A stretch of DNA of 64,000 nucleotides. Origin: Cerioporus squamosus. Lineage: Eukaryota; Basidiomycota; Agaricomycetes; Polyporales; Polyporaceae. The DNA is taken from the NCBI GenBank assembly GCA_022592435.1, contig JABYQS010000002.1:310001-374000 (forward strand), written 5' to 3'. Numbering within the stretch: position 1 is the stretch's first letter; each line of letters begins with the position of its first letter. The notes under the pieces were generated by a model. That model worked only from the letters and a program-made list of their open reading frames with translations. It was not told the origin of the DNA and made no database searches. Positions 11,489 to 15,194 of this stretch are shown here, one piece after another. Position numbers and translations under genes: made by a program.

Positions 11489-13086
11489 TCACGAACGCGC
11501 ACCAACATGAGCACCTCCACGTCGACCACGTCCACCACCACGTCTGCCATATCCGCCCCAACCACCGACGTATGCGCCCGGGCCCATCAAGCCAACCCCA
11601 CCAGGCTCTCCAAACGTCGCGACGTTCCGCTCCCTCTCCTCTTCTCGGCGGTTGCGGCCTCCACCCCGACGTCCACCGCGTCCACGTCCATCAGCAGAGG
11701 GGCCGTTGCTGCCCGAAGACAGCGAGTCGAAGAACGACTTCTTCGGGTTGTATGCAGTCGTCGTACCGTCATCCTTCTTCTCCTCCTCGTCTACCTCGCC
11801 CTCCTCGCCCTCGTCGTCATTCTTAGGCGTGCCGCGCGGAGAGGGCGCAAGTGCAGCCTTGTCGAATCGCGAGTTCGATGCATCAAAGTCAAAGGGCACG
11901 TTCGGGATGCGCAAGTCGCCCGCCTTGATCTCTTGGCCCTGTCCCCTTCCTCCACGCCGGCCACCACGCTGCTGCTGGCTGGCCCCATTTGCGCCCGACA
12001 CGCGCAGGTCGCCAAGGGCACGCTCGACGGTCTCCATCGAGGCAGTTGCCGAGTTTACCGCCGTGTTGCGTCCATTACGCGGCGGTGCGGCGGCAGCACC
12101 ATTGGGCGGGGATTGCGCATTCGGCACTTGGCCAGGCTGCTGCGAACCAGAAGGTTGCGCTGCCTGCTGACGGTTAGCGAAGGCTTGCTGTTGTCGCGGA
12201 GGCACCTGCCCTTGCCCTTGTTGAGGAGGAACACCGGCAGCGGTTTGCTGCTGGTAGGAGAGGGAGCCAAATGGAGGGTAGGTGGGGGCAATCTGGGGTT
12301 GGGGTGACGCCTACGAGAACAAAGTCAGCGCCCAGTATATGTGGTCACAAAATGATGTGGCGCGAGCATATAGTCAGAAGGAAGGCAACGGGATATCCAC
12401 ACGGTTTTATGCGCTCTCGGACATCCGAGCTTTGCTCGTTACATCCGTTAATGGTTTCATCATATAAACGCGCTCGCAACGGGAGACGAGAGGAGAGACC
12501 ACTCACACCAAGGACCGCAGGATCATCGTGCACATTCCTTCGTTGTTGTGCTGCTGGCTCGTCAACAGCCAAGTCCTTCACCTCGGACGCGCGGAAGATG
12601 ATGTATGTGTAGGGCTCTTGCACAGGGGGGATGTACTCATTGGGCGGCCTGCAGGAGGTTACACAGTCAGTCGACCCAGCTTAAACGGAGAAATAATGCA
12701 TAAAAGATCAGAAGGAAGGCAACGGAAAGATCCACACGAGGTTTATGCGCTCTCGGACAACTGAGCCGCAGCTCTTTTACATCCGGTATGGCTTCATCCC
12801 ATAGACACGTTGACGAGGAAGCAAGGCTCACCTTCGCGACTCCGTTCCCATAGAGTACACTGAATGCCTAGTCAGTACGCGTCTGTAATGGAAGACGACG
12901 TGCCACTGGCGTGCTCACCATTCGAAAGTTGGATTGTCGACGCGACGGGGTCGATGCCCGCGAGAATACCTCTGTATCGTACATCTGAATGAGAAACGAG
13001 AGAAATTGGCTTTCTGCACAAGTCGTCAGCATACACGCGCACGCCGAGGCAAGTGGCACCTACCCGATGAAACTGAGAGCGGCCAT
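11489..13086 (-). CDS. SCD6: SCD6/LSM14 translation repressor and P-body protein
   Basis: Five exons: 13086-13064, 13013-12919, 12859-12832, 12648-12507 and 12310-11489 (369 residues). The N-terminal LSm14 domain (residues 1-80) reads MAALSFIGKPISLVS, RYRGIL, VYSMGTESR and YTYIIFRASEVKDL. A Pro/Gln linker follows, then a DFDF/FDF segment (PFDFDASNSRFDKA, about residues 234-250), an FFD box (YNPKKSFFDSLS), a TFG box (ATFGEPGG) and RGG-rich tails. This is the full layout of Scd6/Lsm14/Tral, which bind eIF4G and the decapping machinery to repress translation in P-bodies. Introns 3 (12649-12831) and 4 (12311-12506) are about three times longer than other introns here and share related sequence. 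The 3' end faces the CoA kinase gene (269 bp apart). Confidence 0.93.
12373..12500. repeat. intron-borne repeat, copy A (SCD6 intron 4)
   Basis: On the plus strand this segment shares cagaaggaaggcaacgg and tttatgcgctctcggaca with copy B, plus a similar 3' part (ttacatccg, tggtttcat and an ata-aacg-c run). It is confined to the intron, and exon 4 between the two copies is not duplicated. Confidence 0.8.
12706..12826. repeat. intron-borne repeat, copy B (SCD6 intron 3)
   Basis: This is the partner of copy A in the preceding intron, in the same orientation with about 333 bp between matching points. By eye the two align at roughly 70-75% with several small gaps. Confidence 0.8.
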
Positions 13087-13151
13087 GGTGGTCAAAGAAG
13101 GGCGGACGAAATCTGGAGACTCGTCAAAGCCTGCGGCAGCGTGTCGCAACC
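13087..13151. promoter_or_regulatory. 65-bp bidirectional start-to-start interval, SCD6 / PGS1
   Basis: The SCD6 start (13086, minus) and the most upstream PGS1 ATG (13152, plus) are 65 bp apart. Transcription must start within this interval or inside the neighbour's coding region. If PGS1 uses its internal ATG at 13254, the shared interval grows to about 167 bp. Confidence 0.5.
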
Positions 13152-15194
13152 ATGGCTCTCGGCATCTCCCGTTCCCACGCTCCCAGCGCTCGTGGATCTG
13201 GGCGCGGACGCCGACCGCGGCGGTCGTCATCGCTGTCGGACGCGTCGAGCTCGATGTTCGGGACGGCGCGCAGTGCACTTCACCTCTCGCGTCTGCGGAT
13301 CTACTCTGCGCTCATCCCTATAGCTGCGGCACAACGACCTCGCAATGTCTCGACTGTCCCGTTCGACCCTACAATACGCCAGTTCCTCGTGAAGCTCGCA
13401 GAACACCAGCCATGCTTTTCTATGCACTCCTCGAGTGTTGCAATAATGCACGAGCCACGCCTATTCTATCAAACACTACTAGTGCGTGACAAGAAATACG
13501 GACGTGTGTTGAATACTGAACGACTGGTCTTGCTAACTCAAGACTATGGTACGAAATGCAAGACATAGACTATTCCTCTCCTCACTCTACATTGGGAACG
13601 AAGATGTCGAACTTGTGAGCAGTATCTCAGACTTCATACCAAGACCTTCTCCAACTCTGGCAACAGATTGAAGCCATACGAGACTCTCTGCGCAAGCGAC
13701 CCACTCTGCATGTCTATCTGCACCTTGACTTGAACCGGTCGACTCGTCCTGGACCAGGCTCAACAGCACGTATCCTGCTCCCCTTGTTACGGGAGCACCC
13801 TGACAGGGTTCACGTATCCCTCTTTCGGAGTCCGAAGCTGAAAGGCATCATGGCTCGTCTGGTACCTCCGCGCTTCAACGAGGGCTGGGGCACCTGGCAC
13901 CCCAAGATCTACGGCGCCGACGACACGATTGTGATATCCGGGTAAGGGAGTACGTCTCTGACACGATGCGGGCCTGATACCACTCTCATGTGTCGTGTAC
14001 TACTGCAGAGCGAACCTCAACACGTCCTACTTCACGGATCGCCAAGACCGCTACTTGCAATTCACGGCACAACCTCGTCTGGCGGATTATTGCTTCGATT
14101 TCTTGCAAGCGGCGTCGACGTTTTCCTACAGCCTTCTTCCTTCGCCAAGCTCCTCAGAAGACTACGTGATCCACTGGTCAGACAAGGTCACGCACCCGCA
14201 TCGAATTGAGGCCAAGGCGCGCCATATTCTCTCATCGTTTCAGAAGGCGCAGCGGGAAGCGTCTTCCGCTTCACTGGTGACAACGGCGGAGAAAGGTTCC
14301 TCGGAGGTGCCTGCTGGTGAACACGATGTGTTGGTATTCCCCGTCATCCAAGCAGGACTATTCGATATCAGAGAAGAAGAGCGGTGTCTCTCACTCCTCT
14401 TCCGCGAACTGTCGGCACAACAACGGTTCTCCCTGCCTTCGACATCAAACTACGACGGACCGCTCGTCGACCTAACAAGCGGGTACTTCGCACTGTACAA
14501 ACCATACCAAGCGGCGGTGATCGAGTCTGGTTTGGCATGTCGCATCCTCGCCGCGAGTCCCAAGGTAAGGACGATCCTCGTCTCCGCGGAGATGCTCGCC
14601 GCTCATCGTACGTGTCTTCACCCCGCTCCTCATAGGCGAACGGATTCTACGGATCGAAGGGGATCTCCGGGCGCATCCCTGAGGCGTACACGTTGTTTGA
14701 GCGGCGATTCATGAATGCAGTCCGTACCGCTCGGAGAGAGTGGGCTCCTGGGTCCTCGGACGTCATCCCAGGAGTACAGCTACATGAATGGGAACGTGAA
14801 GGGTGGACATACCACGCGAAAGGTGCGACATTTGCGTTGTACACCCCATGATCACGATTCACCTACTCCCGCACCACCCATATTGTATCTTCATCTGCAC
14901 TCCCGATATGGCTGACATAAACCTCCAGGCATCTGGGTGCGTCCTACCCCGTCGTCGGCACCCGTCCTAACCTTGTTCGGTTCAACGAACCTCAACTCGC
15001 GCTCCGCGAACCTCGACACGGAGCTCTCATTCGTCCTCGCCACAACATCTCCGTCCTTGCAGAAGAGGCTCGCTTCGGAGGTCGACGGGCTTCGTGCGCA
15101 TGCGCACCCATGGCGTGGAGAGTCCGACTCGGAGTCGCGGAGGGTGCGTCTGGGAACGCGGGCTTTGATCGGCATTGTGGGTGGCATGTTGTAG
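13152..15194 (+). CDS. PGS1: CDP-diacylglycerol-glycerol-3-phosphate 3-phosphatidyltransferase
   Basis: Six exons: 13152-13481, 13543-13614, 13667-13941, 14009-14564, 14636-14822 and 14929-15194 (561 residues). This mitochondrial phosphatidylglycerophosphate synthase makes the first committed intermediate of cardiolipin from CDP-diacylglycerol. It belongs to the phospholipase D superfamily. The first HKD-type motif reads HPKIYGADD followed by SGANLN and YFTDRQDRY; the second reads HAKGIW...GSTNLNSRS. LYIG and LDLNRSTRPGP are also family signatures. The HxK residue of the first motif is HPK, where HMK is more usual. The first 35-60 residues are basic and Ser-rich, consistent with a mitochondrial presequence. 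ATG 13254 is an alternative start that would also leave a plausible presequence. Confidence 0.92.

Follow-up and report, generated by a model that had tools for sequence, protein, structure and literature searches.

Adjoining SCD6 introns of Cerioporus squamosus very probably carry twin box C/D small nucleolar RNA genes of the snoZ13_snr52 family

In a 64-kb stretch of DNA from the basidiomycete Cerioporus squamosus (contig JABYQS010000002.1, positions 310,001 to 374,000; this whole stretch is referred to as the window), two consecutive introns of the SCD6/LSM14 gene share a segment of sequence. Taken as a whole, the evidence is best explained by twin box C/D small nucleolar RNA (snoRNA) genes of the family snoZ13_snr52 (RF00335), one in each intron, an identification that we hold with high confidence on the basis of sequence analysis. 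The gene, the two introns and the two snoRNA copies are as follows (coordinates are those of the window):

11489..13086, minus strand: SCD6/LSM14 host gene, a five-exon coding span for 369 amino acids, its 3′ end reckoned from 369 codons plus the stop codon
12649..12831, minus strand: SCD6 intron 3, 183 nucleotides, phase 2, containing one snoRNA copy; defined by its GT..AG ends and the reading frame
12311..12506, minus strand: SCD6 intron 4, 196 nucleotides, phase 0, containing the other snoRNA copy; defined in the same way
12700..12809, minus strand: snoRNA copy of intron 3, matching RF00335 positions 1–101 of 101 with 68.1 bits (E 3e-11 over the window)
12366..12472, minus strand: snoRNA copy of intron 4, matching RF00335 positions 1–101 of 101 with 64.9 bits (E 2e-10 over the window)

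The identification is carried by a cmscan search of the window with Rfam. Both copies (2 of 2) exceed the RF00335 gathering score of 47, both match the family model over its full length and both lie on the strand of the host gene; the meaningful strand of the shared segment is minus, that of SCD6. They are the only Rfam matches in the window at the gathering threshold, and two further matches fall far below theirs (18.8 versus 56.7 and 17.6 versus 50). The two motifs by which the sequence-only reading of this DNA had recognized the repeat can now be named: cagaaggaaggcaacgg corresponds, as reverse complement, to the guide with most of box D, and tttatgcgctctcggaca to the conserved central part of the snoRNA. 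As that reading had said, each intron has both of them, with the same order and strand, and the repeats that hold them are identical between the introns at 18 of 18 and 23 of 25 bases.

The expected elements can be placed within the copies. The consensus of box C is RUGAUGA, and the motif UGUGGAU, which is part of the RF00335 consensus and lies at the place where this box would be looked for, is read as a putative box C′ in the present analysis; box D′ could not be assigned in either copy.

12794..12800, minus strand: box C of the intron 3 copy (GGGAUGA, one letter off the consensus)
12730..12736, minus strand: putative box C′ of the intron 3 copy (UGUGGAU)
12712..12723, minus strand: D guide of the intron 3 copy, GUUGCCUUCCUU, the 12 nucleotides directly before box D
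12708..12711, minus strand: box D of the intron 3 copy (CUGA)
12457..12463, minus strand: box C of the intron 4 copy (AUGAUGA)
12395..12401, minus strand: putative box C′ of the intron 4 copy (UGUGGAU)
12378..12389, minus strand: D guide of the intron 4 copy, identical to that of the intron 3 copy
12374..12377, minus strand: box D of the intron 4 copy (CUGA)

In both copies, the D guide forms 12 contiguous pairs (one of them G–U) with a presumed 18S ribosomal RNA (rRNA) stretch that does not come from the present assembly. The fifth nucleotide from box D faces an A in this stretch, and a pairing run of the same length arose in 0 of 500 shuffles of the intron 4 copy. As predicted from the pairing, the D guide of both copies would direct methylation of an 18S adenosine. 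The Neurospora snoRNA CD42 is tabulated as an intronic RNA of 92 nucleotides whose D guide (12/0) is directed to 18S-Am417 and whose counterparts are snR52 and U83; its entry lists no 25S Um2921 target (PMC2780460). For the chicken snoRNA GGgCD10, the corresponding entry lists 18S-A429 and 28S-C3190, with counterparts snR52 and U83a/b (PMC2653536). The SCD6 copies resemble RF00335 (yeast snR52, with Neurospora CD42 and animal U83/SNORD83 listed as counterparts) in their full-length match, D guide and box D, and they share the intronic location with CD42.

The exon structure in which the copies are embedded agrees with a deposited protein. The 369-residue host protein contains the Pfam LSM14 domain (89.9 bits, cut-off 30), with the FDF domain barely under its cut-off (26.0 versus 26.1) and the SM-ATX domain also under (26.2 versus 29.8); SCD6 is a P-body protein. 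The best of 421 protein matches, the C. squamosus (Polyporales) Scd6-like protein P0001, is 100% identical over all 369 residues, in agreement with the exon–intron reading with introns 3 and 4 removed. Retained-intron readings were also sought, as a stand-in for orthologous snoRNAs, with ten short peptide patterns among 120 listed of the 421 SCD6 relatives. The single match, SESA in P0029, lies near residue 292 of 387, well away from the junctions, and has no diagnostic value; P0042 and P0035 show unusual residues close to the junctions. As the sequence-only reading had noticed, introns 3 and 4 are unusually long, at 183 and 196 nucleotides versus 50 and 59 for introns 1 and 2. Without their RF00335 matches (110 and 107 nucleotides), they would measure 73 and 89 nucleotides, so a snoRNA cargo of about 105 nucleotides accounts for most of the excess.

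Several points weigh against the identification as a pair of box C/D snoRNA genes. In intron 3, box C is one letter off the consensus. The folding energy of this copy is unremarkable (z 0.46; equalled by 137 of 200 shuffles), and that of the intron 4 copy is modest (z −2.07; 6 of 200). When the intron 3 copy was shuffled, pairing runs with 18S of the same length, at any position in the RNA, arose 5 times in 500, the longest reaching 14. Yeast snR52 also directs methylation at 25S Um2921, according to PMC11121408; no D′ guide was found in the SCD6 copies, and this second yeast target is matched by neither of them. Against a presumed A-loop stretch of 25S, their longest pairing runs were 6 and 7, lengths reached by 499 of 500 and 430 of 500 shuffles; this pairing is no better than that of shuffles and lends no support to a second target at 25S. 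The 18S target itself was compared with a presumed rRNA stretch, as no nuclear 18S gene was found with a universal 18S pattern, one mismatch allowed, in the assembly of the same genome (54 Mb, 988 contigs). Ribosomal DNA seems to be absent from this assembly. The 18S target pattern occurs in it at five places, compared with six for a control pattern; two of the five are the guides themselves, and the remaining three (L008, L009 and L012, of which L008 and L012 are alike) have no recognizable 18S context. Published comparisons add three further points. For a U83-like snoRNA, a paper on sponges says that no target is known (PMC3412847), contrary to the chicken and Neurospora entries; according to a review, the majority of snoRNAs in fungi are encoded by independent genes; and the commonest 5′ distance given for Neurospora is 41–60 nucleotides (PMC2780460), whereas the RF00335 matches start only 22 (intron 3) and 34 (intron 4) nucleotides past the 5′ splice site. 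On the other side, 45 of 55 box C/D snoRNAs are intronic in the same Neurospora account, which also holds, with no figure attached, that how far an intronic snoRNA lies from the 3′ splice site matters for its processing (PMC2780460). From the end of box D to the 3′ end of the intron, this distance is 59 nucleotides in intron 3 and 63 in intron 4.

The altered box C of the intron 3 copy could also mean that one copy is functional and that the other, most likely this one, is a fading pseudogene. We regard this as very unlikely, because the intron 3 copy has the higher family score of the two and because the guide, box D and putative C′ are intact in both. Independent transcription by RNA polymerase III was rejected: neither intron has a B-box pattern (GWTCRANNC), and each contains one run of at least four T. 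The yeast SNR52 gene is a polymerase III gene. Each copy, in its minimum-energy fold, forms a small GAGC/GCUC hairpin in the C to C′ half, with a loop that differs between the two; this hairpin region differs from the Rfam consensus, and a CGGA...UCCG stem encloses the hairpin in the intron 3 copy alone.

How the pair arose can be addressed by asking how far the similarity extends. Local alignment of the whole introns scores 97, compared with a maximum of 27 in 2,000 first-order Markov resamplings, so the shared repeat reported for introns 3 and 4 stands. The snoRNA copies are identical at 88 of 104 ungapped columns, a divergence of about 15%. Outside them, the claim that the likeness runs on to the intron ends survives only weakly on one side: the similarity of the 5′ flanks is at chance (its score was reached by 749 of 2,000 resamplings, or by 401 of 2,000 without the six splice-site bases), and that of the 3′ flanks is weak (19 of 2,000, or 12 of 2,000 without the last six bases). 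With this divergence and little recognizable similarity outside the snoRNA, the pair does not look recent. The best reading of these sequences is that one snoRNA was cis-duplicated into the neighbouring SCD6 intron: a single copy would have been copied within SCD6 into the adjoining intron, and both copies would then have been retained. Duplication within one gene, as proposed by the sequence-only reading, is upheld; its recency is not supported, nor is the introner-like element that it had offered as a cause, as the segment belongs to a known snoRNA family and was found in two copies in the assembly (a lower bound).

Duplication may also have taken in the 3′ part of the intron. The weak likeness of the 3′ flanks consists of CTGGG...CTGAC near the presumed branch points (12335 and 12679, minus strand), a hint of a duplicated unit that extends past the snoRNA to the branch-point region. 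The window has 146 CTGAC sites, counting both strands; only two of them have CTGGG 2–4 nucleotides before them, and these are the ones in introns 3 and 4. This restriction, together with the small share of resamplings that reach the 3′ flank score, would fit duplication of a whole intron, in which a copy of the snoRNA-bearing intron, branch-point region included, would have turned into the adjacent one, an intron gain. The duplication put forward by the sequence-only reading would then be correct as a mechanism, if not in kind. However, the motif was picked after the alignment had been seen, the 5′ flanks resemble each other no more than chance would have it, and the two introns differ in phase, so that we consider a whole-intron duplication unlikely. 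The fuller proposal, that such a copy gave SCD6 a new spliceosomal intron and that the gain was kept for its useful cargo, is more doubtful again.

Introner-like elements have many near-identical copies that fill introns of many genes and are similar from splice site to splice site. Two similar long introns lying side by side might suggest such an element, or another mobile element multiplying as introns, yet neither property was found, and we give this explanation almost no credence. The similarity does not span the introns from splice site to splice site, and the shared segment is a snoRNA family known from other fungi. A DNA search of the genome, the route by which the sequence-only reading would have uncovered introner copies, matched only the locus itself. 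The RF00335 family-model search of the assembly (54 of 1,301 candidates scored, E up to 10) gave two places, both SCD6 introns; as a control, it gave a signal in 6 of 14 named genomes and passed the cut-off in 0 of 14. The exact guide plus box D occurs in the assembly only at the two snoRNA sites. No third copy was therefore found in the 54 Mb by DNA search, family model or exact guide motif, nor in a repeat search of positions 11500–14500, and with two copies alone found (a lower bound), introner-type multiplicity is absent. Guide plus box D with one mismatch occurs at two sites (on contigs C878 and C955), compared with three matches at up to one mismatch for a reversed-pattern control; these sites are therefore at chance level, and the stretches around them are nearly alike and unlike the snoRNA. 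In viral contigs, guide plus box D was found at 0 places.

The cis-duplication of a snoRNA within SCD6 that we favour has precedents. For sponges, snoRNA copying between neighbouring introns of one gene has been described, in a paper that names nematodes and platypus as further known cases (PMC3412847), and almost all chicken snoRNA paralogues are attributed to intragenic duplication (PMC2653536). Human U83A and U83B are likewise a paralogous pair within one gene, in introns 5 and 7 of RPL3 (PMC3412847), but the host differs and the introns are non-adjacent. The chicken U83 counterpart is listed as two copies in two different host genes, whereas the SCD6 pair has one host; the presence of two paralogues in one SCD6 gene is one feature that sets this case apart within RF00335. 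We infer that the SCD6 duplication is independent of the sponge and vertebrate events. One comparative study makes the case that snoRNAs continue to move from place to place in genomes, and was unable to assign snR52 to the last eukaryotic common ancestor (PMC3511168); in another, the introns of RPL7 and NOG2 that carry snoRNAs are found at conserved positions in most fungi (PMC8476143). Among basidiomycetes, Pleurotus ostreatus also has several RF00335 copies, tabulated as snoZ13_snr52.1,.2 and.3 (PMC5040776). Two of them form a close pair on one scaffold and strand (213071–213178 and 213325–213430, 146 bp apart), and the third is intronic elsewhere (PMC5040776). Unlike the SCD6 copies, the close pair is listed at 646 and 394 bp from a gene boundary and not as intronic, and the table does not name a host gene.

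Other box C/D families were also searched for in the assembly. RF00309 (snosnR60_Z15; 60 of 1,359 candidates scored) gave two matches of equal score, L013 at C24:390995-391087 and L014 at C979:5807-5899; C979 may represent a second haplotype, or else a duplicate that was assembled on its own. RF00069 and RF00093 had no match in the assembly and none in the 14 control genomes either, so the result is uninformative.

In the literature searched, we found no paper on LSM14 as a snoRNA host gene or on snoRNAs of C. squamosus; the SCD6 pair may therefore be undescribed, but its kind is already known. The lead on introner-like elements is closed, and two long introns are instead flagged as non-coding RNA genes, which protein-gene annotation would miss. 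The record of snoRNA cis-duplication gains a basidiomycete and the gene SCD6, and should relatives show one of the introns to have been gained together with its snoRNA, the pair would illustrate cleanly how useful cargo can lead to the gain of an intron.
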